Part shown: piece by piece, positions 1,447 to 63,606 of the stretch | How positions within the stretch are numbered: the stretch's first letter is position 1 | Layout: every line of letters begins with the position of its first letter | From: Labia minor | Lineage: Eukaryota; Arthropoda; Insecta; Dermaptera; Spongiphoridae | DNA length: 64,000 nt | Direction of reading: 5' to 3' | Assembly (NCBI GenBank): GCA_963082975.1 | Contig: OY720346.1 | Coordinates: forward strand, 43,067,296 to 43,131,295 | Position numbers and translations under genes: made by a program | The notes under the pieces: model-generated | Databases searched by the model: none | Seen by the model: only the letters and a program-made list of their open reading frames with translations | Told to the model about the DNA's origin: nothing

Positions 1447-4400
1447 GTAAGTAAGATATTTTTGAATCTGAAAATCAGATCAGAATTAATTTTTATTATA
1501 TTTTATTAAATTATATCAATATCCTTAATATTTTACAAAAATATTTTAATAATTTAGATTTGTTATCATTATAAGAGTTATTAATTATGTAGGTTATTGT
1601 TAATTATATCTCTCTATAATAGAATTATCGTAAATGCAAATAATATAAAAGTTGAAAGTTAAAGGTATTATGATAATTATTTGTTAAAATATATATATAT
1701 GTATATGAAGAGTATACATCTATTTACATAGAATTAAAATGAATAAACAAGATACGAAGTTCAAATGCTTGAGAAATTTGTTTATAGGGAAACCAATTGG
1801 GAAATTAACGGTGAGTAAACCAAGAAGAATTTAATGGTAGATATAAAGAAATTGGGTCCGAATTGGATGGAAATGGATGAAAATATTGTGGATAACTACG
1901 CCCAAGAACTAGATATATATATATTAATATATATATATATTTGCTCGTTTAGGTTTCCGTGAAAGTTTTCATTATTAGGAGAAATTATTTCCGGATTATT
2001 TTCATGTATAATTGAGAGATTTGGGCCTCGAATTTCGGCGCCCATTTGGGCGCCTTTTTCAAAAGAGTTTAATCAGTAGGGAAGTTTTTTGGATTCTTGG
2101 TCTTAGAATCCCAAAAAATGTATATATATATACAAATATATTTGTATTTATGAAAATATTTAACCGCTTTTTTTGAAATTCACTCAATAGATAATATTCA
2201 TAAAGAAAAATCGATCTGTATTGGTTTCAGCCTCGGGAAAAATCATCTTTGTTAGTTTTTTCTTAATTTAAAATTGTAATTTTATTAATAAAAAAAAAAA
2301 TTCCGCCGAGTACTTCCACAAATTAAGGGCCGTATATTTTATGACTATTTTTTTTAATTTATGATCTTTTAAATTATTTGAAATTGTTTCATATATTTTG
2401 TCATTTCTTTATTTTAAATAATAATCTCTATCTTAAATATTCATAGTTCATAAGGAATAATTTTTTAAAGTACCGAGCGGCGCCTAGGTAACCAGGTACT
2501 TACAATAATAATAACTTTCGTATATATCTATATATATAGAGATATATACGGAAGTTATTATAAAAATTCAAATAAAAAATTGAATATGATATTAAAAATG
2601 TTATGTTATCATTTTTATATTACTAGTGGGAATATAGATAATATTTCATAACAGATATCTCTTTTATTTTTAATACCTATTAATTATATTTATTTAAGAG
2701 AAAATAAATATAGGTTATTCTTTTGTTTTTAATTTACAATGTTTTAATCAATAATAAAGAAAATGTATAATTATTCAAAGTTATTATTTGTTTTTTTTCA
2801 CTGATGTCCTTAATAGGTACTATGATATATGCTATTATGACATGATGAGTGAAAGTGTCTATCTCTCTTCTTATTTTTATTTTTACGCACGCAATCTTGA
2901 TGACATATTGAACATTAATTCAATGCAAAGTCATTAATTTAAAATTTATTTATTTATTTTGATATAAAATTAATTGAAAAAAAATAAAAGTTAAACTATT
3001 ATTATTTTTATAGGTATTATTTAAATTTACAAATATATAAATCTTTAATATTGAAAAATATACGAGATATCTTCAAAATAGTAAAAGGAATTTTGTAAAG
3101 TTGGATTTTTTCGTTGATATAATCGTAAACATTAATGACTGAAAAGTAATGATTTTTTCTGTGTATAAATTGATAATAGGATAATAGGTTTATAATTTCG
3201 TTGTGAATATAATACGGTCTGATAAAGAATAATATAAATATAAAAAAAATTTTATAAAATAACGTTATTCTCATGGACTAAAAAGAGTAAAATAATTTTT
3301 CTATAAGCCTGACAAAGTTTATATATGAATTGCTTCATATTCAACTAATAAGTTGACCTGTGGCCAGGTCCGAACCGACCGACGGTTTGAAATAAATTAA
3401 TTTCCAGCTACAGAAACAATTTCAAATAATTTTAATATATCTATTAATGTAATAAAAAACAGATATGGATACATAAATAATAAATATAAACATTTTTAAT
3501 TTTATTTTATTTATAATATATATGCAAGACCAGGCTGTGACGTCATGCATGGCTGGAAGACGTCATATAATTTTAAATCAAGAAAAAACTAATAAATATG
3601 ATTTTTTTCGAAGATAAAACCAATACAAAATGCATGATCGTGGTGATATATAAAAAAATCTCCTTTGGTGTGAAAATAACCCTTTCCTTCCTATCGTCGA
3701 TCGCTAATACTACCACTTCCGGTTTCCGGAATTGCACCAAAAGTTGATCAATTCATCCCACTGATGCATTAAGTAAATATACCAAATTTCATCAAAATCG
3801 GTTGAGCCGTTCAGGCTGTACACATCTATACGGACGGACAGTCGGACAGACGGACAGACATCATGCTAAAAATACTTTTTTCTGTTTAGAAAATGCATGA
3901 TTCGTGGAGATATGTAAAAATCTCCACATATGAAATTTGGTGTGAAAACAATCCCTCCCTTACTATCGTCGGTCGGTAAAAACGTTTGGCGCATAATGAT
4001 TAGAAAAAATAAATTCCAAAAAACGAGAATTCCTGTTAATTTGTATTGTAGTGGGCTTCGAGGTTTAATTACCCGATCACTCAGTCACTCTATACTTACT
4101 GCAAATATGGTGTACAGTGAAGGTAAAAAGTAAACATCAGGGTGGCGCTGTTGTCGGGCAATTAACCGGTTGAGAAGGCGCATTCACATTACTCGTCATT
4201 AGCGTTTACTTTTTTACGTCACTATAAATAATAATAATCTTTTTCTTTTAGTATAGTTCTTTTAGCTGATGCTTTTTTGCTATATTATAATATTTATAAT
4301 TTTACTATTACTAAGGTTACTTTATTTATGATTTATTTTTTTTTCAAATAATAAAATTTATCATATTTTATCCCAATAAGTTCAAACAAACAAATTATTT

Positions 4401-5454: not shown

Positions 5455-8400
5455 CGAAATCTAGTATTCAATTAACCTTTTTTTTAAAACACATAAAAAT
5501 AAAATTACAATTTATAGAATAATTTTGTTTTTTTTGAAAGACCCACGCCGAAAGACACCATCTAGTGTCATGTAGCCGAATTATGGGGTTAGGTGATGAG
5601 TGATTATGGCTTTTATATATAATAATGATATTGGATGATTAGAAAATGTAAAATGATTAAGGAGTCAGCGGGTAGATAGCAGGAAAACACAAAGTTTAAA
5701 AATTAAACTCTTAAATTCTTTTTCAATCTATTTGTGTCTCTTAAATGGTCACTTACATAGAATATATATATATAAAATGAAAAATTATTTCCGGTTTATT
5801 TTCCCGTTTAATTGTGAGATTTGGCTCTTAACATTTTGGCGCGCATTTTGGTGCCATTTTCAAGAGAGTTTATTTATTTTTTGGGATTCTGGGTCTTAAT
5901 CACTGTCACCAAGAGTCGATGTTGGGATTTTAGGTTGAAAGGGTGTGAGATTTTTGACTGAAGCTCCTAAGAATCCTTGGCACTAACATTATCACTGACA
6001 CACGTCTGCTCCTGACAGTCCGAGGCCGACTAGCAAGGACATTACGTCTACACATTGGATGAAAATTATTTCTTTTCTTAATCTTATTCTGGTTGCTGAC
6101 ACTTAATCCAATATTTTTGATTTTAACTCGAATGCCTTTGAACCATTATTATAATTTTGATTAATGTGTTAGTAAGGTCCTTCAATCGATAGACAGTACC
6201 TATTTTCTTCTCTGAGATTTATTTATATTTCAAATTTATATTTAATTAAATAACAAAAATTAATTAAATAGATCAAATAAATAAAAAAATATATATATTT
6301 ATTTTTACCATACTAAAATAATATTTTTATCTAATTTATATATAAATTGTAAATTTTATTAAATTATTATATTTTTTTTATATGTATAATATATTTTAAA
6401 TATTATTACCAATATTCAAATATTCAATTAATGATCTTAATTATATTTATTTATTTATTGTTTGTTTATTGTTCTGATAAAACTAAAAAATATTATTTAT
6501 ATTTTCATATTTAATTTTTGAAATGTAAATTATATAATTCAATTTTATATATATATATATATATTTATATGTTTGCATATATAATATTTATTTTGATTAA
6601 ATATTTAGTTTAAAGGTGCTTCAGCATTTTAGCCATTTAGCGCCTTGTTTTTTTTATATTAATACTAACAATATAACAAAAAGAAAAAAAAGAATAAAAT
6701 AATTTTATATTTATATTATTAATCTTTTTATAAAATGTTTCTTTTCTTTTTAGAATTATTTAAGCCAGTTAGAATGGAATAAAGAGCGTGGAGTTTATGA
6801 AATGGTTGGTGGTTATTATGAAAAGGTATGGCGATATTTAGAATCACGAATGAATTTTACGTACGTATATATTTCTTATCAATTGATTGAGTATAAATAT
6901 AATAAAAAAAATAAAATAAATTGATTGTGTTAAAGTAAGATCTTGCAATATTGTCATAAGTAGAAATTTTTATATAGGCAAAAAATTATTAAATATTAAA
7001 TACCCCTAACCACCAATTTAAAGGCTATTTGTTTTAGAAGATTTCTCTTTACAAGTCTGTAAATTAATGGATTTCAAAAAAACTTGTGAAAATGTGAATT
7101 AGACTGATTATACGCATATATTGTATATATATTTGAGGTTATATTTTTTATTACCGATCGACGATAGTAAGGGAGGTATTGTTTTCACACCAAATTTCAC
7201 ATGTGGAGATTTTTACATATCTCCACGAATCATGCATTTTCTTAACAGAAAAAAGTATTTTTAGCATGATGTCTGTCCGTCCGTCCGTCCGTATAGATGT
7301 GTACAGCCTGAACGGCTCAACGGATTTTGATGAAATTTGGTATATTTACTTAATGCATCAGTGGGATGAATTGATCAACTTTTTTGGTGCAAATTCGGAA
7401 ACTGGAAGTTGTAGTATTAGCCATCTACGATAGGAAGGGAAGGGTTATTTTCCCACCAAATTTCACATAAGGAGATTTTTTACATATTACCACGAATCAT
7501 GCACTTTGTATTGGTTTTATTCTCGAGAAAAATCATTTTTATTAGTTTTTTTCTTAATTTAAAATTATATGACATCATCCAGCCATTCCTGACGTCACAG
7601 CCTCGTCTTACATATATATTATAAATAAAATAAAATTAAAAATATTTATGTTATATCCATATCTGTTTTTTATTACATTAATAGATATATTAAAATTATT
7701 TGAAATTGTTTCTGTAGCTGGAAATTAATTTATTTCAAACCGTCGGTCGGTTCGGACCTGGCCACAGGTCAACTTATTTTTTCGATTACTCTGGTGGCAA
7801 CGAGAATAGGGATCCCCAGTGTTGTAAAATATATAAAGAGAATTCCTGTAGTATTAATATATAATTAAGTTTTATAAAAATTATAATATTAATAAAATCA
7901 TGATATAAATTTATTGTTTATCTTGAAGAATATTCTTTAATAAGGCACATGTTAAAATTTATTTTATTTATTTATATTATTTATTTTGATAAAAAATATA
8001 AGGATAATAAAGGATGATGGTAAGAATTCCCCTTATGTATAAATTGAATTAAAAATATATAATAGCTTTTCAGGTCCCCTTCAGCGCTCTTCGCACCTAG
8101 ATAGGGGGCTCTGCATAGTATTTGTTTGAAAATCTGTATGCAAAAGGTTTAATTTATTTTAATTGAATCACAGTATATTAAAATATTCATATCTTTTTGT
8201 GATCTTATTTAAAATATAGTGAGAAGGCCCCCGTTCAGTGTATGTAGTTAAACTTCTTCTTTGTTGATCACTTTTGAGTAGCATATCTTCCTTTTTACTA
8301 TCTCGCCAGAGATAGTATTGCGATCATGAAAATTTTCGATGTCGAGATTTTGATGTTTTTACACATTTTGAAGGTCCCTGAGTCATTTTCACTAAGGTTG

Positions 8401-11400
8401 AGAAAAATGACTGTGTGTGTGTTTGTAGACAAGATTACGCAAAAACGGGTTGAGCTAGAATAATGAAATTTGGTATACAAGCATTCAAAATTCGTAGTTT
8501 TCTATCATCTTTTAGCTCAACCACAAGAGGGTCATTACCTACAACGTTTTTTTTCCTCTAAAGTGACCGTAAAAATAGAGATATATGTTTGATAGTTTTA
8601 AACATGATTAAAAAAATTGTATAAAACTGCTATATATATAATTTCAGCTTGATTGAATCGCTGAAAGTACCAGAATTAATTTTTTAACACTGCAAATCAC
8701 GCGCCAACACTTGACATAGTGCTATCAACAAAGAGCCAAACATGCGCTGGTTTAATAAATATTATTTATTAATTTTAATTTATAATTTATAATTAATTAA
8801 ATTTAATGTCAAGTTCTTAACTGAGTCCCCAGAGGCGCCAGATGGATAGTTTATAGAAGGATATAGGTTGTTAAATATATTATATACCAACATTTGTTAT
8901 TTTATGAAAGAACTATAAATCTATTTACCTTTATTTTTGTTTCATTTAAATGACTGAATTATGCACATTTTTGTTTTTGATTTACATAGTTTTAAATATC
9001 AAAATCAAATCTTAGATTTGATGTCAATTTTTAATTAAAAGAAAATTTATGCAGTTTTGAAACTTTGACATAATCAATTTCTTATTTTTAAATTTTAACT
9101 ATTTGTGTAATTTTTATTGACATTATAAGGGGAAATTTTAATATTAACTATAAAAATATGTTTTTAGGACTTCTTTTAATTCAACGACTTTATCTGGTTG
9201 GAGTGTGAAACGAAATGGCAACAAATGGATGGGAATTGAGACACATTTACAAAATAACTATTCTGAGGCAGTTGTCTCGCCAGTTATTAATATCCCTGAT
9301 AAACAAAAGGGTTTTTTTGTTTCATGGCCCATCTATATACAAAGGTTTTATTTAGTTAGAAAAAAAAATGATTTATTTTTAACTTGATTATTAAATATTT
9401 ATTTATTTAATATTATTATTTTAGATATTATTTATTTGTGAAAGATCCAATGGTGGATAATATAATTCCGTGGTCCAATTATCTAGAACCATTTAATTTT
9501 ATTTTATGGATAATGTTGGGCCTTTGCGTTTTGTTTCTTGCCTTGAGTATTCAATTAGTTGCATTTCAAACAAGAAAAATAAATAATTATTATCTACAAA
9601 TAAAAAATTTTACATTAGTTAATGTATTATTTCATACATTTCGGATATTTTGCAATCAAGGTAATTTTTAATGACCCATTAATTTAATAAATAAAAAAAA
9701 CTTAATTGAATGCATTTTTTAATCAAAATGTAATAATTCAATTATGACATTTTTTTTTGTTAAACAATACAGTTTATGGCGAAAATGCTTTATTTATTAT
9801 TTTAGGACAGGAATTGGAACCGAAAACTTCTTCATTACGTATCGTTATCCTGACTGGATATTCAACCGCTTTTCTTCTCTTTTCATCATATTCAGCTGTT
9901 TTGATTTCGTTTTTAGCAACAGATCATGTATCATTACCATTTGACTCTTTTGAATCAATTCTAAAAGACGGGAGTTATCAATTGGGCGTTATTAAAAATT
10001 CAAACGGTTACATTTACCTTTCTGTAATTTTTATTATTATCAATATCGCAAATAATTATTTGTACTAATGATTTATTATTATCTAATAATTTAATAATGA
10101 ATTTTTATTATCGAAGGAATCGAGATTGAGTTATTTACATAACATTTGGAGCCGTTTAATGAATACATCTCAGTTGAATTTCCCATCTACGTTGGAACAG
10201 GCGTGGCGTCGCGTTTGTCAAGAGCGTTACGCGTTTTTATTACCAACTGATCAACCAACGCCAATTTATATGGATGCAATGCCATGTCGAATGCGCGTTC
10301 TAAAACCGAATTATATTTACGTTCGTTCAGCGTTTGCATTTGTTAAGAATTTTCCATTTCAATCATTAATTCAATATCAGTGCGTCATCATAATAAATAT
10401 ATAAATAAAATAAATAAATAAATAAATAAATAAAAATATGTCGTTTTTTTGTCAGTATTCAGGATATGAAAGATTCTGGTATATTAAAAAGAATCGCCAA
10501 TGAATGGAAAGAAGAAATGGAGAAAAATTTCCATTGGTATTCATCAACTAGCACAATTACAGTCACCTTTTTTCAGGTATTGGTATTCAATTTCTTTATT
10601 TTTTTTTTTATTTTTTTTTCTACATTAAATATCCTCCCCATACCCACATCTATAAGTAATCAAAAAAAAAAGAAAAGAAAAATATATGTTCATTTGCATA
10701 ACAATTTGGTAAAAAAATTAAATTATTAAATGAAAGAAAATAGGAACATAAATTTATAAAGAATATATATAGTATAGTAGTTCTAAAGTATCCTATAGTA
10801 GTTTTTGTGATATATGCCACATTTTATACACGATCTATGACTATTAATTATCCTTAGGTAAAATCTATCTTTTGCTCAATTGTAGTTAATCCTTACATCT
10901 TCTCAGGGATGCATCTTTTGCTCCTCTTATATTTAAGTTCCGGGAATGCCAAGGTATTTGTTATCTAGTTGGGGTATTTGGAAACAAGGTTCATCTTATA
11001 AAAATAACAAGTAGCGGCTTCTGATCAAGAAAATCAAGAAAAGAGTTGAAGAATACTGATCATACAACAACTCTACTTTAAATATGCACCAACATAATTG
11101 ATAGGTTGACCTTGAATAGTATGTTCAAAAAGTCAGATAATACTTTCTTTTTATTTACAGGATCCAGCTTTATGTTTCTCGTAAGATTTAACCGGGAGGT
11201 ATTCTTCTTCTATGCTTTCTTTCATAGGATTTGTCTTCTTGCTATTTCTCTCATCTGTTCATTTAAAACATTTATTGAACGTTCATACGTAGAACGTCTT
11301 TGATACAATTTTTGTCTTTAATGTTTTTCTGCTATACAATGTTGTATTGAGCTGGCACATTATGGGTTTATTCTTTCGCAATTTTGTTTAATACATCTTC

Positions 11401-17835: not shown

Positions 17836-18930
17836 AATACCGGTATACCAGTATACAGAAAACTGGTATTTCGTGCTTTTTTATAATACCGAAATACCGA
17901 TATTTTCGGTATTTACTAATAAATGAATATTTTTAAAAAAATAACAAAGTTGTTAAAAGATTTAAAAATAATTATAATTAAATTCTAATATAATAAATTT
18001 GATAACAAATAATCTTTTAATGAAGATATCGTCTACTTAACTATTTAGTAATGGAGCATCGGTGATGAAAAAGTTGAAATGTTGATTAATGCTTATCAGC
18101 AATTATGCTATCTTCATAGTATTCAGCTTGGAGTAATTAGCGTACTATATGAACAAAATCAGGAGAAGCCGAACACTGGAAACTTTTATTTCTGAGTTTG
18201 ACGATAGGGATGATGCAATTTTACTAAGTGATTTATGTAACAAATTAGATACTAATAGTAGATTCCAAAAACACGCAGGAATAGCTTGCTTCTCATGATG
18301 GAGCGATTTTTGAAATTGAAAAGTCCAATTCAAAGGGCATTAATTGATTTGAGTTTGCCGATTAATTTTTCAGACAACGAGATTAATGTTCTTTCTGAGA
18401 TTATTTCCGTTTTGCTTCTAATTAAGTTATCTGTGGAGGCGTTATGTCGCCAGAATTCAAATTTATTAATGGCATATGCAACAATCAAATTTATGTTTGA
18501 ATCGCTTAAAAAACAAAATATGTCATTGTCAGAAAAATTGGGCAGTGCATTAAAAAGTTGCACTTGGTAGGGAAAAATGAATTTAGAAAAAGTTCTTAGC
18601 TATTTGCATGATCCTAAGCAGTTCAAAATGGAAAATGAATTTGAAAATCGCATGTATCAATTAACAAAACCTAGATTGGTTAAAATCATTGTTAATCTTG
18701 TGAAAAACCTTTATAAAAATGAGACCAACGAAGAATAAGGAACTTTACTTAATTTAAGTAGGGACGGAAACATGGAAGATGAAAAAGTAGCAATGTCAGT
18801 AGAACAACAATTCCACTGGGCCATTATTAGAAAAACATTAGTGAAAAATAATGCACAGGTGATGGATCAAAAATACTTATTAAAAATTATTAAAAGGTAG
18901 GTGAAATCATTTGAAGACGAAGCCGTTGGA
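17836..18930 (+). pseudogene. hAT-superfamily transposase relic
   Basis: Decayed transposase of a hAT element of the type annotated as zinc-finger BED proteins in arthropods. Recognisable blocks in order: NGASVMKKL near 18,050; QQLCYLHSIQLGVISVLYEQ near 18,100; TRRNSLLLMMERFLKLKSPI near 18,275, where the usual KTRWNSLL has lost its W; the helical stretch LPINFSDNEINVLSEIISVL onwards to about 18,560; and NLEKVLSYLHDPKQF near 18,580. At least four stops or frame changes. The left flank (17,836-17,930) repeats TACCGGTAT/CGGTATTT motifs, perhaps the element's end. The RAERAFS-type C-terminal block is missing; a minisatellite starts there. Confidence 0.75.
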
Positions 18931-18934
18931 TTGA

Positions 18935-19695
18935 TATGATTTAAAATTTGATGTGATGGGACCATGGTAGATACCATAATTTATGCCATGGTTGATGTCA
19001 AGATTGATTTGATTGATATGATTGACAAGATTAATGCCAGGATTGATACCATTATAGATATCATGATTAATATGATTGATCCCATGATTGATGTAAATGA
19101 TATGATTGATGTGAATGATACCGTCATTTATTGATATGATTGATGCCAATCTTGATGTCAAGATTGATATGATTTATGTGAATAATACCATGATTAAAGC
19201 CATGATTCATGTCAAGATTGATGTGAAATGTGATTGATATGATTGATGAGAATGATAGCATGATTGATGTCAAGATTGATGTGTTTTAATATGATTGATA
19301 TGATTGACATGATTGTTGTGATTAATATGATTGATGTGATTGATATGATTGATGTGAATGATACCATGATTGATACCAAATATATGCTATGGTTTATGTC
19401 AAGATTGTTGTGATTGATATGATTGATGTGAATGATACCATCATTGATACCATGATTGATGTGAATGATACCATGGTTGATACCATGGTTGATACAATGA
19501 TTGAAACCATGATTGATGGCATGATTGATATGATTGAAATGATTGATATGATTGATGTGAATGATGCCATCATTGATACAATGATTGATGTGAATGATGC
19601 CATCATTGATACAATGTTTGATGTGAATGATACCATGATTGATGGCATGATTGATATGATTGATACCATGTTAGTATGCCATTATTGATATGATT
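18935..19695. repeat. GATTGAT minisatellite
   Basis: About 760 bases built from imperfect 9-, 12- and 30-base units of GATTGATATGATTGATGTGA and ATGATACCAT. Both strands stay open over long runs (plus: MIDVNDTMIDTMIDVNDTMV) only because the unit contains no stop in those frames. It starts exactly where the hAT homology ends. Confidence 0.9.
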
Positions 19696-19807
19696 GATTC
19701 AATATTATAAAAAATTCAAATATTGTATTGGAATAAGTTCGTTAAAAGACCTCCAGACTGTCATGACTATTCATTCAATGAGAAAAACAAAACGTAAACG
19801 TTTATAT

Positions 19808-24190: not shown

Positions 24191-24193
24191 TTT

Positions 24194-26123
24194 TTACCGG
24201 CCGACGATAGTAAGGGAGGTATTGTTTTCACACCAAATTTCACATATGGAGATTTTTACATATCTCCAGCATGATGTCTGTCCGTCCGTCGGACTAGATG
24301 TGTACAGCTTGAACGGCTCAACGGATTTCGATGAAATTTACTATATTTACTTAATGCATCAGTATGATGAATTGATCAACTTTTGGTGCAAATCCGGAAA
24401 CCGGAAGTGGTAGTATTAGCGATCGACGATAGGAAGGTAAGGGTTATTTTCGCACCAAATTTCACATAAGGAGATTTTTTACATATCACCACGAATCATG
24501 CACTTTGTATTGGTTTTATTCTCGAGAAAAATCATTTTTATTAGTTTTTTTCTTAATTTAAAATTATATGACGTCATCCAGCCATTCATGACGTCACAGC
24601 CTAGTCTGTACAGCTTGAACGGCTCAACGGATTTTGATGAAATTTGGTATATTTTTTTTCTTAATGCATCAGTATGATGAATTGATCAACTTTTGGTGCA
24701 AATCCGGAAACCAAAAGTGGTAGTATTAGCGATCGACGATAGGAAGGGAAGGGTTATTTTCACACCAAATTTCACATGAGGAGATTTCTTACATATCACC
24801 ACGAATCATGCACTTTGTGGTGGTTTTATTCTCGAGAAAAATCATCTAGTTAGTTATATCATATTAGTTTTTTTCTTAATTTAAAATTATATGACGTCAT
24901 CCAGCAATTCATGACGTCACAGCCTGGTCTTATATATTATAAATAAAATAAAATTAAAAATATTTATGTTCTATCCATATCTGTTTTTTATTACATTAAT
25001 AGATATAATTAAAATTATTTGAAATTGTTTCTGTAGCTGGAAATTAATTTATTTCAAACCGTCGCACAGTGGTATGAAACGCCAAAAAAGCTGGCCAAAA
25101 ATCGAAAATTGAAAATTTTTTTTTTTGCATGTCGTTTATGGTATTTTGTTGAAGACATATTTATGTACGAAAAGCTGAAAATGTAGAGCACTACCATGAC
25201 TCTACGAGTTTTCCGAACATCTCAAAGTCAGCTGTTTTTACTTTCTCCCGAGATTTCCCAAAACGTCTGAAATTCGAGCTCAGTCAAAATTGGTGTTTCG
25301 TTTCATAGAAAAGTTTCATTTGCAACTTGCGACATGGAAACTGTTGCTGGAGGTACGTACATGGACTTTTTTATTTTGTTTGCTAGAAATGCATGTATTA
25401 TTTTGATATTGGCTGATTTAAACCGCTTGTGTCAGAAAATATAACGTGACGAAAAACTTTTCAAAAAACATTCCGCATTTTTTACATTGGTGACCATTGG
25501 TGACAATCTCATTTGAATCATAAAGATAAAGGTCTATAGATAAAGAATCATGAAGAAAAAATTGCTCCTTTTTGCCCCATTTGTTCCTATGAATTTTTTT
25601 CCGAGCGCGCGAACGTCAACAGACTAGGGCCTATGGGACCCAAGGTACCTGCAGGTTAGCGCGATTAATATCTCGTTAAGGTGCACCTGTCACTTTTCAA
25701 AAGAAGGAAAGATATTTGAAGTAAAATCAATGTAACAGCTCACCTTTTCTCGAATTCCGTCGCCTATTTTAGATGCATAATATAGTTGTTCTCCTTTTTC
25801 TCTGCATGACGTCATTTTTTGAAAAATCAACACATCATTTGAAATTTATCATTTTTTTTCGTACAATCTAACTTCAATTTCGAAATTTTCGGCTCAAAAA
25901 ATCCCAGAGAACATACAATTGCGAATCTGACGTTACTTTTCTAAAAATCTGTCCGCCATTTTGAATTCGCCATTTTTTTTTTTCAAATTTAAATTTCCTG
26001 ACTCTCAAAACTATTGCCTACAAAATTTCAAGCTGTTTCACCAACATCTTCATTTTTGGCCAGCTATTTGGGCGTTTCAGACCACTGTGCGTCGGTCGGT
26101 TCGGACCACAGGTCAACTTATTT
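24194..26123 (-). repeat. Two-part repeat, R half with three modules
   Basis: Reverse copy split by the Transib-like element (25,065-26,089). It carries three copies of the hairpin module (near 24,200, 24,425 and 24,735) and two tails with paired TGACGTCA sites (near 24,570 and 24,892). Other copies have two modules and one tail, so about 310 bases were duplicated inside this one. Confidence 0.75.
25065..26089. mobile_element. Transib-like non-autonomous transposon
   Basis: 1,025 bases bounded by terminal inverted repeats: left CACAGTGGTATGAAACGCC, right (reversed) CACAGTGGTCTGAAACGCC, both continuing to AGCTGGCCAAAAAT, about 38 bases with a few mismatches. It is flanked on each side by CGTCG, while undisturbed repeat copies have a single CGTCGGTCGG at that point, so CGTCG is a 5-bp target duplication. 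Transib elements start with CAC, duplicate 5 bp and prefer CGNCG-type targets; the first seven bases equal the V(D)J heptamer CACAGTG. No transposase frame is intact. METVAGGTYMDFF at 25,334 just before a GTACGT could be a relic start. Confidence 0.8.
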
Positions 26124-26884: not shown

Positions 26885-27682
26885 ACACACACAGACATTT
26901 TTCTCAACCTTAGTGAAAATGATTCAGGAACCTTCAAAACGTATAAAAACATCAAAATCTCAACATCGAAAATTTTCATGATCGCAATACTATCTCTGGC
27001 GAGATAGTAAATAAGTTGACCTGTGGCCAGGTCCGAACCGACCGACGGTTTAAAATAAATTAATTTCCAGCTACAGAAACAATTTCAAATAATTTTAATA
27101 TATCTATTAATGTAATAAAAATCAGATATGGATATAACATAAATATTTTTAATTTTATTTTATTTATAATATATAGCTGAAGTAGCCGGCGTTGCCGGCG
27201 TTACCCGAGGCTGTGACGTCATATAATTTTAAATTAAGAAAAACATAATGAAGATGATTTTTCCCGAGGATAAAACCAATACATTCGTGGTGATATGTAA
27301 AAAAATCTCCTTATGTGAAATTTGGTGCGAAAATAACCCTTCCCTTCTTATCGTCGATCGCTAATACTACCACTTCCGGTTTCCGGATTTGCATCAAAAG
27401 TTGATCAATTCATCCCACTGATGCATTAAGTAAATATACCAAATTTCATCAAAATCCGTTAAGCCGTTCAGGCTGTACACATCTATACGGACGGACAGAC
27501 GGACAGATGGACGGACAGACGGACGGACGGACGGACAGACGGACAGACGGACGGACAGACATCATGCTAAAAATACTTTTTTCTGTTAAGAAAATGCATG
27601 ATTCGTGGAGATATGTAAAAATCTCCACATGTGAAATTTGGTGTGAAAACAATACCTCCCTTACTATCGTCGGTCGGTAAAA
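26398..27682 (+). repeat. Two-part repeat, complete L+R composite
   Basis: L half 26,398-27,011: begins CTGGAGTGTCTCCACTCGAC, carries (CA)n at 26,850-26,892 and ends in the perfect hairpin CTATCTC-TGGC-GAGATAG. Seven bases later R starts with GTTGACCTGTGGCCAGG and runs to CGTCGGTCGGTAAAAA. R has a long GGAC/GACA microsatellite at 27,488-27,560. The junction is the same in the 61-62 kb copy, so the two halves move as one element. Non-coding. Confidence 0.85.
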
Positions 27683-27689
27683 ATGGTAT

Positions 27690-57278: not shown

Positions 57279-60200
57279 CTACAAAACACCCAATAGCTTG
57301 ATTATTTATATTATACCATAAACATTGCATAATTTAAAATCTATCTATACTATATATATACAGGGTTATTCAAAAAGAAAGAGCAGATTGCAAACATGTA
57401 AAGGGTGTTTCTTTTAAAGGTATAGAACTTTAAATTGCAATAAAACAACGATGGATTATTCGATTGACATGCATTGTATTTATACGAAAGATAATATTGT
57501 GGCATTACATTTTATATATGATTTTTGGCATATGATGTAGTCCAATCTGGACATCCAATTTTCGATAACTTTTTCCAACATTTGTGGCCGTATATCGGCA
57601 ATAACAAGACGAATGTGTCTTCCAAATGGTCAAGCGTTTGTGGTTATCCGCATAAACCAATGACTTTACATAACCCCACAGAAAGTAGTCTAGCGGTGTA
57701 AAATCACAAGATCTTGGAGGCCAATTTACAGGTCCAAAACGTGAAATTAGGGACGAGCTGTGTGACATGTTGCGCCGTCTTGTTGGAACCACAGCTCTTG
57801 GACATCATGGTTGTTCAATTCAGGAATGAAAAAGTTAGTAAACATGTCGAATGGGCTCATTCAGGTCTTCCTCATGCTAAGCTCTACAGTAGCAATAGCT
57901 TCTTCGGTACGCAGCGTACGGCATCTCTGGGGATGCGAAAACGTTCCATGGTTAATCGAATTAACTGCTCTGATGGACGATTTTGTCGACGATAAAATGG
58001 ACGTAGTGCACGATACGTATTCCGCACAGAACCATTATTTTCGAAATAAAATTGCACTATTTGCAAGCGTTGTTCAGGCGTGAGTCTATTCATGATGAAT
58101 TGCCAAACCAAACTGAGAATAAATCACTTGACAGCTTTTAAATCGGTCGTCAACTTGAACAGTAATGCCAACTTAAAGTTCTATACCTCGAAAAAAAACA
58201 CCCTTTATTTCTTCCAAACTACAAAAGATGAAAACATGATTCTAACTTTAATAGATAGAGAAAAGTTTACAATTTATTATTAGTATGGGTAAAAGTTCCA
58301 ATCATTTTCGCATAGGCGCTTTTGTTTATTCTGGTATTATTTGTCGGTTGGTAGTCTGTAGTGAAATGGCGGCGACACAACTGGAGAAGTCTTTTTGTGT
58401 TCTACAATTAACAAAACTAGAGTCTAGAGTCCTTTGTTACAGTTCAGCGAGGATTTGGTCGTCAATTTAATAAACAACCAAAGACCAGCTAATTCGGGTC
58501 TGGCAAGAAATGAGCCACCGTTTTGATATTTGTACGGTGCTCATAATGAATGCATACCATAATTGTAGACTTGTAATTGTAAACTTTTCCCTATCCATTA
58601 ACGTTATAATCATGTTTCTATCTTATGTTCGGAATAAATAAATAAATAAATAAATATATATATAAGCATGTCTGTCGATCAGTTCATTTGATCACTAAGT
58701 ATTTTCATACACATGCACGGTTTGAGGCTAAAGTTGGCACGTAAGTAGATCTCATGTTCACAAAGCGGTTGAGCCTGACGCGTGCTTAATGATGTTTTCT
58801 TATTAATATACTCAAATTTTTAACCATTTGTTATTATAATATTATCATGAAAACGTTATATTTTTATTAATTTTATTTCATAAGGAATTTTACTTATAAG
58901 GAAGTATTTCGCTAGTTTTGTAAATCTTTAATGACATTGTTTAATAAAAATGAATAATTAATTGTTCCATTTTTTTAGATTTTATATATTATATTATAAT
59001 ATTTTATTTTATATTATATACATATATATTAGTAGAAGGACGTAGGATCCCAGGCCATGAAGGAATTATTTTGTTAAAAGAGGAGAAAAGATCGGAGGTT
59101 GAAAATCTGAAATGGTCCATAAGGGAGAGAGAGATACGATGGATGGAAAGAGGTTAAAGATTGAATATTGAGGGTAATAAAGATAGTCAAAGTCTGTTTA
59201 CATAAAAAGAGAGACAACACAAGATTACTCTCACCACTCAACGATTGGCCAACAAAAAAAAAACAACAATATTTCTTATCATTCTTGTAAAAGTCAAAAA
59301 AGAAAAAAAGATAAAATAAGATGAAAAAGGAAAAAAAGATAGAGTAAGTGAGTTTTATTATTATTATTATTTTCATTCAAAGGAAAAAAATACAGAAAGA
59401 GAGAGTAAGAGTAAGATAGAGACAGAGAGAGCCATTTGATTATTTCCCATGAGTACTCTTTAGTCGTTACGTTATAGTATGATCTAACCCCTTTCATTCA
59501 TCCATTTTCATTTTATATTGATATAAACTTATACATATTAATCAATGTATATTATTAATTAACTATTGATTATTATCATTAATTGAAATTTTATAAAGCT
59601 GAAACAAAATAAAAACAACTATACGCGATCTTATATATTATACGATATTATCGTATCTTTTTTATCGACCGACAATAGGAAGGAAAGGTATTGTTTTCTC
59701 ACCAAATTTCACATGTGGAGACTTTTACATATCTCCACGAATCATCATGCATTTTGTTAACAGAAAAAAGTATTTTTAGCATGATGTCTGTCCGTATAGA
59801 TGGGTAGAGCTTGAAAGGCTCAACGGATTTTGATAAAATTTGATATAATTATTTTGTTGAATTCATCAACTTTTGGTGTATATCCGGAAACCGGAAGTAG
59901 TAGTTTAATTAAGTATTAATTTCATATTCATTGTCGGAAATTTTTAATATAAAATAAAATATAATTGAGTAATTAAACTAAAAATAAAAACAGATAATAT
60001 AATTTAATTCAAGTTTTCAAAATATATTTTTTTGATACTTTATATATATGACCTATATATATAATGTTTGTCAATAATATAATAATCAATTAATTTTTTT
60101 CATTCAACAATCATTACATCAAAGTTAGTTAACTGGGTTTTTAAACTTTCCCTATCAGGGGATTCAAAATTAATATTGTAATTAATAAAAAAAAATACAT

Positions 60201-61510: not shown

Positions 61511-62250
61511 ACCTTAGTGAAAATGACTCAGGAACCTTCAAAACGTATAAAAAGATCAAAATCTCGACATCGACAATTTTCGTGATCGCAATACTATCTC
61601 TGACGAGATAGTAAATAAGTTGACCTGTGGCCAGGTCCGAACCGACCGACGGTTTGAAATAAATTAATTTCCAGCTACAGAAACAATTTCAAATAATTTT
61701 CATATATCTATTAATGTAATAAAAAACAGATATGGATACATAAATAATAAATATAAACATTTTTAATTTTATTTTATTTATAATATATATGCAAGACCAG
61801 GCTGTGACGTCATGAATGGCTGGATGACGTCATATAATTTTAAATCAAGAAAAAACTAATAAATATGATTTTTCTCGAGGATAAAACCAATACAAAGTGC
61901 ATGATTCGTGGTGATATATAAAAAAATCTCCTTTGGTGTGAAAATAACCCTTTCCTTCCTATCGTCGATCGCTAATACTACCACTTCCGGTTTCCGGAAT
62001 TGCACCAAAAGTTGATCAATTCATCCCACTGATGCATTAAGTAAATATACCAAATTTCATCAAAATCGGTTGAGCCGTTCAGGCTGTACACATCTATACG
62101 GACGGACGGACAGACGGACGGACAGACATCATGCTAAAAATACTTTTTTCTGTTTAGAAAATGCATGATTCGTGGAGATATGTTAAAATCTCCACATGTG
62201 AAATTTGGTGTGAAAACAATACCTCCCTTACTATCGTCGGTCGGTAAAAA
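61003..62250 (+). repeat. Two-part repeat, complete L+R composite
   Basis: L half 61,003-61,615 with (GA)n at 61,479-61,504, ending in hairpin CTATCTCTGACGAGATAG. R half from GTTGACC at 61,619 to 62,250 with GGACGGACAGAC run and TGACGTCA pair at 61,805-61,832. The L-R junction is the same as at 27.0 kb. Confidence 0.85.
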
Positions 62251-62910: not shown

Positions 62911-63606
62911 AGGGTGGCGCAGATGGATCGGGTTTTAAACTACTTGTCAAACTGCCAATTTTAAAGATATTGGTTTGAAATAAAGTACAAAACGTGTAGT
63001 TACAATGGAAGTTTATTAACAAAAAATTAGTAAAGTTAGTTTTTAAAAATTACATCCATCAAATGCCCTCCTTCTCGAGCGACGCATTCTTGGAGTCGGT
63101 CCTTAACGTTCCGCATTGCCCGCTCAAGCACATCACCAGGAATTGATGTGATTTCGTTGTGAATTCAACTCCTGAATTGACCGGGGTTTGTTCATGTAGA
63201 CCCTTGCTTTTAAATAACCCTATAAGAAAAAGACACATACCGTGAGGTCCGGTGAGCGAGGGGGCCAATGGAATTGTTAATTCTCAGCGTTATGTGAACA
63301 TGATTGAAGAATTTCTCCTCCCACAACTTGAAGAGAACAATTACGACATAGAAAATATGTGGTTCCGACAAGACGGGGCAACTGCACATACCGCATGGAT
63401 ATCAATGCAAGCTGTACGTGTTCTGTTCCCTGGCCGTTTGATTTCCCGTAATGGATGTAATTTTTAAAAACTAACTTTACTAATTTTTTGTTAATAAACT
63501 TCCATTGTAACTACACGTTTTGCACTTTATTTGAATCCAATATTTTTAAAATTGACAGTTTGACAAGTAGTTTAAAACCACCCGATCCATCTGAGCCACC
63601 CTGTAT
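62911..63606. mobile_element. Fold-back IS630/Tc1-like transposon
   Basis: Arms of about 150 bases (62,911-63,062 and 63,450-63,606) are inverted copies: ACAGGGTGGCGCAGATGGAT outside, GTAAAGTTAGTTTTTAAAAA inside. Each arm is the 3' end of the same transposase gene. On the plus strand: RYVNMIEEFLLPQLEENN, WFRQDGATAHTAWISMQAVR and FPGRLISR, joined by deletion to the C-terminal end. On the minus strand: WPPRSPDLT (63,240-63,268) and a broken C-terminal region ending in the same tail. Two 3' halves joined head to head. TA flanks are present at both ends. Confidence 0.8.

Follow-up and report, generated by a model that had tools for sequence, protein, structure and literature searches.

A young Transib family of Labia minor occupies almost exclusively one position of a HINE-like repeat, with footprints that fit hairpin-type excision

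Transib transposons are characterised by a RAG1-core-like DDE transposase, CAC heptamer-like ends, 5-bp target duplications and a CGNCG-type target (the last as given in PMC4735498), and the Repbase rule assigns an element to a known family when the duplication length is equal and the first 11 bases show at most one mismatch (PMC4455052). In Drosophila, Transibs such as hopper and transib2 are described at a 7-bp palindrome, CCANTGG, that reaches one base beyond the 5-bp duplication on each side (PMC3276498), and Hztransib of Helicoverpa zea is described at GCTCG in a P450 promoter (PMC1852546). Most families are reported to have little or no similarity to the nonamer of the RAG recombination signal sequence (RSS) (PMC8289069), and Transib spacers to be symmetric and 20-22 bp long (PMC8355894). 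Cut-and-paste elements that reside at a single base within a multicopy sequence are known in Dada and Pokey, which belong to other superfamilies and target snRNA/tRNA or rRNA genes (PMC3706591, PMC3849761). The family described here shares with HzTransib (6pqn) a RAG1-core-like DDE transposase (474 residues aligned, catalytic triad conserved), 5-bp duplications and a full length of 3.5-3.6 kb, the ends lying outside this comparison, but it is found nearly always at one target. As in hopper and transib2, its 5-bp duplication sits within a 7-bp palindrome whose C and G lie one base outside, although the motif is CCGNCGG-like and concentrated in one repeat; as with Dada and Pokey, a single base of a multicopy sequence is used, whereas the target is here another transposon. 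The resemblance to RAG1/RAG2 and its RSS extends to a heptamer identical to the consensus and to putative footprints that look like coding joints with P-bases, but both ends have 23-bp spacers, with no 12/23 asymmetry, and the setting is a germline repeat, not an immune locus. In the open-access literature, with few subscription journals covered, our search brought up neither a Transib restricted to the end of a Helentron nor naturally formed P-base footprints of a Transib.

We analysed a 64,000-nucleotide stretch of the Labia minor genome (the window), in which an earlier note had pointed out an insertion with CACAGTG at both termini (Table 1). This heptamer occurs exactly twice in the window, a count unremarkable alone (1.36 expected), and both occurrences are the tips of one inverted repeat; under an independent-base model, an inverted repeat with 35 of 38 bases identical and no more than 8 kb between its arms has an expected count of about 1e-6 in 64 kb. 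With up to three mismatches allowed, the 19-base end was found at only these two places in the window and at none in 100 shuffles. Four uninterrupted sister copies of the host repeat retain the empty site, AAACCGTCGGTCGGTT, and the filled copy reads AAACCGTCG, element, CGTCGGTCGGTT. Since the base adjoining the duplication is mismatched on both sides, no duplication length but 5 bp fits, and the duplication is exactly CGTCG. A window scan listed the 40 best CAC...GTG pairs of inverted repeats, and this element alone among them has a 5-bp flanking repeat. The longest stop-to-stop frame wholly within it has 68 codons. The note's description of matching bases beyond both heptamers, of an insertion and duplication legible from sister copies, and of a non-autonomous element lacking an open frame has therefore been borne out in each respect, and the element proved to be a deletion derivative of a full-length copy found elsewhere (see below).

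Table 1. Coordinates of the insertion, its host repeat and the uninterrupted sister repeats in the window
Feature	Position	Strand	Remarks
Interrupted host repeat, HINE-like, from its 5' to its 3' end across the insertion	24191..26123	+	with internal duplication
Non-autonomous Transib element	25065..26089	+	length 1,025 bp
Left terminal inverted repeat, 38 bp	25065..25102	+	
Right terminal inverted repeat, 38 bp	26052..26089	-	35/38 against the left one
RSS-like heptamer CACAGTG	25065..25071	+	exact match; consensus from PMC8289069
RSS-like heptamer CACAGTG	26083..26089	-	exact match
Nonamer-like CCAAAAATC	25095..25103	+	7/9 to ACAAAAACC, 23 bp past heptamer; suggestive only
Nonamer-like CCAAAAATG	26051..26059	-	6/9, 23 bp past heptamer; not independent of the other end
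Target-site duplication CGTCG, left copy	25060..25064		by comparison with empty sister sites
Target-site duplication CGTCG, right copy	26090..26094		by comparison with empty sister sites
63-bp segment, not in full-length copy L096	25600..25662		by comparison with L096
Internal deletion point	25796..25797		about 2.7 kb of the full-length element missing, including the transposase frame
Uninterrupted sister copy	7148..7779	+	empty site 7741
Uninterrupted sister copy	3347..3982	-	empty site 3375-3384
Uninterrupted sister copy	27009..27683	-	empty site 27038-27047
Uninterrupted sister copy, 638 bp	61613..62250	-	empty site 61642-61651

Exactly 23 bases past the heptamer, both ends carry a nonamer-like CCAAAAAT(C/G). 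The resemblance is weak (0.34% of all 9-mers in the window score at least 7/9 against the nonamer) and the two ends are not independent, so that we regard it as suggestive. A Pfam scan of 30 window frames, four of which overlap the element, returned just DUF4817 and Lig_chan, each in one frame, and tRNA and Rfam scans of the window returned no match. By eye, we assign DUF4817 to mariner-like remnants at 57508-58123 (-) and 63246-63464 (+), and Lig_chan to a run of exon-like frames resembling an ionotropic glutamate-type receptor at 9154-10726 (+). A diverged tandem array at 18929-19707 contains a 152-codon open frame of His/Asn/Ile-rich repeats.

Genome-wide pattern counts were made by exact matching in the 604-Mb assembly, whose contig C4 contains the window, and are lower bounds. 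There are 228 exact occurrences of the outermost 19 bases of the ends, 114 per strand, against none for the reversed-pattern control. Fetched end pairs lie 788 to 3,646 bp apart; of 134 candidates, 40 copies were scored; their identity to the query is 98-100%, and 35 of these 40 show a mean pairwise difference of 0.62%. The longest fetched copy (L096; 3,646 bp), which has ends matching at 38 of 38 bases, sits at the HINE 3' site described below with a CGACG duplication and encodes an uninterrupted frame of 612 amino acids whose first Met is residue 59. This frame matches HzTransib at E 8.9e-107 (residues 102-575) and Pfam RAG1 at 25.9 bits (cut-off 25), with a weak match to vertebrate RAG1, and its D207, D315 and E529 align with the catalytic D, D and E of HzTransib as numbered in PMC6941560. 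Upstream of it, on the minus strand at 2781-3263 of L096, lies a 161-aa frame, 156 aa of which are kept in a second copy (L116); it is perhaps a first exon or N-terminal domain of the transposase.

A whole-genome protein search gave 29 transposase matches (E <=0.001) with 74-100% identity. Two of them, L096 and L116, have the whole stop-free 612-aa frame, and both are at the HINE 3' site; the L116 element is 99.4% identical to that of L096, with HINE sequence on both sides. DNA was read at 11 of the 29 (L096-L101, L107, L108, L110, L111 and L116), all of them copies or deletion derivatives of this Transib family. The window copy consists of segments 97.6-100% identical to L096, with 63 bp added and about 2.7 kb missing (positions 599-732 of the window element correspond to 3110-2977 of the L096 element, and 732-1025 to 293-1), and is thus a deletion derivative that depends on full-length copies. 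The added 63-bp segment is GC-richer. No more distant Transib appeared in the genome-wide protein search with the transposase, which would fit a recent arrival of the family; horizontal transfer is a guess. The family may still be active. Neither the ends nor the transposase had relatives in a collection of genome contigs, and the transposase had none in a collection of viral contigs. The lone viral-contig match of an 18-base end pattern (L001) was rejected as a chance 19-base match in a bacteriophage-like contig with no further likeness.

We read the junctions at 60 places, comprising the window, the 39 others of the 40 scored copies and 20 end pairs picked from the listing of exact ends. Both 19-base ends are exact at 57 places, and each of these has a perfect 5-bp duplication (CGACG 31, CGTCG 22, CGGCG 2, CGCCG 1, CGACC 1). 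Fifty-three of the 57 insertions occupy one identical position of the HINE 3' subterminal repeat. The four exceptions are L079, L080 and L103, three insertions in two distinct places outside HINEs, and L105 (G000:C2:28310906), which lies at a shifted site in a variant HINE 5' subterminal repeat with the duplication CGACC and is the lone 5'-repeat case among the 57. Of the remaining three places, each with one damaged end, L084 occupies the HINE 3' site and the other two (L059 and L073) are outside HINEs. Genome-wide, CGNCG precedes 219 of the 228 exact ends, and 103 of the 228 form a left-hand junction with the HINE 3' site (one of these is the remnant L090, below); as 114 left-hand ends would mean all copies, the share at this site is about 90%. 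Target specificity is strong, not absolute. L079 and L080 are one and the same insertion with identical flanks on two small contigs (C60 and C25), and by eye the flank resembles, in its motif, a mariner/Tc1 transposase gene. Two same-orientation HINE-left junctions lie 2.6 kb apart at G000:C9:17319598 and C9:17322211, possibly through a local duplication.

These results support the note's classification of the element as Transib-like, in that L096 joins the same ends to an HzTransib-like, RAG1-core-like transposase; neither of the two observations that the note had named as refuting it was made. Its expectations of 5-bp duplications (no other length occurs in the 57 insertions with exact ends) and of a CGNCG-type preference agree with the junctions and the 219 ends just described, and the 98-100% identity indicates a young family. 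The target site inside another transposon, shared by almost all copies, and the excision-type footprints described below go beyond the note.

The host repeat is about 638 bp long. Its 5' part consists of TTTTT, then ACCGACCGACG, then a short GTCC-type array; its 3' part has CGTCGGTCGGT, starting 39 bases from the end, a hairpin with a 6-bp stem, and AACTTATTT. It shares with HINE / DINE-1 elements, as described in PMC4067079, inverted subterminal repeats (11 bp here) close to both ends, a 3' palindrome, ends rich in T and a short tandem array, although the 5' repeat starts 5 nt from the end here versus the 2-4 published there. On these sequence features the repeat is close to a HINE, a non-autonomous Helentron. 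From the insertion site it is about 34 bases to the 3' tip, and the predicted hairpin adjoins the site; the 5' subterminal repeat is without that hairpin. Exact matching finds the 3' site, as a 15-mer, 18,469 times in the genome and the 5' repeat 27,472 times. At 38 places (G000:C1:7284294 and similar) two HINE 5'-end sequences stand back to back, as in CTATCGTCGGTCGGTAATTACTATCGTCGGTCGG, perhaps a signature of Helentron end reuse. A new insertion of a Drosophila Transib family is reported inside an INE-1 copy (PMC10299278); INE-1 is a HINE, so that Transib-in-HINE insertions may recur.

Many HINE copies carry the duplication without the element. A pattern in which the left host flank with CGTCG is separated from CGTCGGTCGG by 0 to 20 bases matches the HINE 3' site 138 times genome-wide (reversed control, 0). 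Among the 100 matches listed, 86 have no base between the duplications and 14 have an insert (C in 4, G in 7, CGACG in 2 and a 19-base insert in 1); none of the 100 has a 2-base insert. All 14 footprints with inserts were fetched for inspection, together with six without. All 14 inserts are obtainable from the reverse complement of neighbouring flank sequence, the outcome expected of hairpins on the flanks that are opened off-centre. In 11 of the 14 the insert is a single base, which P-bases and duplication of the neighbouring base explain equally well, as C is the first and G the last base of the duplication. Only the other three discriminate, and two of these (L129 and L130) are found in HINE copies that closely resemble each other. 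Applied to the HINE 5' repeat, this search gave 39 matches, namely 38 larger HINE-end repeats and one short case with an extra G, a contrast with the 3' site that is significant whether all 138 footprints (Fisher p 2.8e-53) or the 100 listed (1.9e-38) are counted. At one further locus (L090, G000:C1:19123052), 26-27 bases of one end are joined directly to the HINE site, a junction that reads as a deletion or an aborted excision product and would represent another kind of loss. Together, the 138 duplication-only sites match what hairpin-type excision would predict, and the footprints fit flank-hairpin cleavage.

Several explanations could account for the concentration of copies at one position of one repeat. 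If one or two HINE copies had caught a Transib and Helentron machinery had then copied both together, a host position common to nearly all copies would be expected; HINE-like elements are very numerous, and some host flanks are near-identical (divergence of at most 1.5% in 34 of 595 pairs). Among 35 copies at the HINE 3' site, however, host flanks (133 bp) diverge on average by 4.45% versus 0.62% for the elements, the host divergence is the larger in 581 of the 595 pairs, and the host-element correlation is 0.06. Flanks about seven times more divergent than their inserts indicate that most insertions are independent, and at least 27 groups are left after same-orientation copies are joined at 1.5% host divergence. 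The site is also occupied in both orientations (20 and 15 of the 35 classified copies) and by several deletion subtypes of 796 to 1,660 bp. Joint amplification is largely refuted by the divergence of flanks versus elements, and we hold it quite improbable as the general cause; a few close pairs could be composites. Purging by selection offers another route, in which any CGNCG is used and HINE insertions, probably harmless, alone escape. Yet HINE 3' sites are 5 of the 51 CGNCG sites in the window (the filled site counted once) against 53 of 57 insertions (binomial 9e-49), copies that differ by about 0.6% have had little time for purging, and the HINE 5' repeat, presumably equally harmless, received 1 of the 57, all of which makes survivorship a very improbable account. 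As regards motif preference, the counterpart here of the Drosophila CCANTGG is C-CGNCG-G, in the HINE 3' site extended to ACCGTCGGT. Within the window, ACCGNCGGT occurs four times, always at an empty HINE site, and genome-wide there are 21,151 ACCGNCGGT palindromes (reversed-pattern control, 2,073), of which 18,469 (about 87%) are the exact HINE 15-mer. The 53 of 57 insertions found there are no different from that site share (binomial p 0.24), so motif preference multiplied by abundance is sufficient and a targeting factor is unneeded. The 5' repeat has CGTCGGTCGG as in the 3' site, but T instead of C just before it, and the 54 versus 1 insertions at the 3' and 5' repeats (54 including L084) depart from the site numbers with Fisher p 1.5e-20. 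Alternatively, the Helentron end itself, through its 3' hairpin or through a protein of Helentron or host origin bound to it, might draw the transposase instead of the motif, which accords with the proximity of the site to the 3' tip and predicted hairpin and with the single insertion among 57 in the hairpin-free 5' repeat. That repeat differs in both motif and hairpin and thus cannot separate motif from guidance, but about 87% of genomic ACCGNCGGT is in the HINE repeat anyway and insertions elsewhere are at CGNCG or CGACC, leaving guided targeting unlikely though by no means negligible.

The footprints, too, could have another origin, the tandem CGTCG being a product of replication slippage or the mark of one HINE subfamily instead of an excision scar. 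With 18,469 sites, rare slippage could give more than 100 cases, and one-base inserts could come from doubling of the neighbouring base. At the 5' repeat, however, the 27,472 sites with the same 10-mer yielded one short case, and the CGACG and 19-base inserts are buildable from flank reverse complements. As to a subfamily, the 20 fetched footprint copies are scattered, the nearest neighbour being a footprint in 4 of 20 versus 7.0 expected if mixed, and they do not appear to form one. We consider either origin improbable. Finally, CAC-ended repeats and 5-bp duplications would suit a RAG1L-RAG2L (ProtoRAG-type) transposon as well as a Transib, as they are described for both groups (PMC7204232). 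The full-length copy of 3,646 bp nevertheless has one transposase frame with no second large frame, and this frame matches HzTransib far more strongly than RAG1. The sizeable non-overlapping frames of L096 are those of 612 and 161 aa; Pfam finds a RAG2 domain in neither, and no RAG2-like gene was found among them (a spliced small-exon gene would escape), a further difference from RAG1/RAG2. A ProtoRAG identity is accordingly extremely improbable.

Starting from the common ends, the 612-aa frame, the 5-bp duplications and the near-exclusive use of one site, all of them read directly, we take the window element, with a probability of about 85%, to be an internally deleted passenger of a young Transib family that inserts at the HINE site through motif preference and is excised by RAG-type hairpin formation. 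Rare full-length copies at other genomic places would supply the RAG1-core-like DDE transposase that cuts and pastes the ends of this passenger. The transposase would recognise as its target a palindrome, (A)C-CGNCG-G(T), 7 to 9 bases long. With about 87% of exact ACCGNCGGT in this AT-rich genome lying within one abundant HINE 3' repeat, that repeat would receive nearly all insertions. On leaving, the element would follow the RAG/Transib route and form hairpins on the flanking DNA, and end joining would then leave both duplications joined directly or with palindromic (P-type) bases between them. More tentatively, and at somewhat less than even odds, we propose that the palindromic target preference of a Transib has here come to fit the end of a single Helentron family, and that jumping in and out in the germline leaves V(D)J-like joints with palindromic bases.

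If this is true, the HINE repeat would be a safe haven with more than 18,000 free seats for the Transib, and an arthropod, an animal without vertebrate-type adaptive immunity, would harbour a RAG-type recombinase that reads a single kind of site and leaves "coding joints" of natural origin. The joints of RAG-type excision have been studied mostly in lymphocytes or test tubes. Here, more than 100 apparent natural germline joints are found at one defined sequence, beside about 100 occupied and 18,000 empty copies and with a near-identical control site in the same HINE repeat, so that Transib target choice and joint formation may be measurable from sequence alone. The family also adds a case of a DNA transposon that uses essentially one position, and that position belongs to another transposon, not to an RNA gene.
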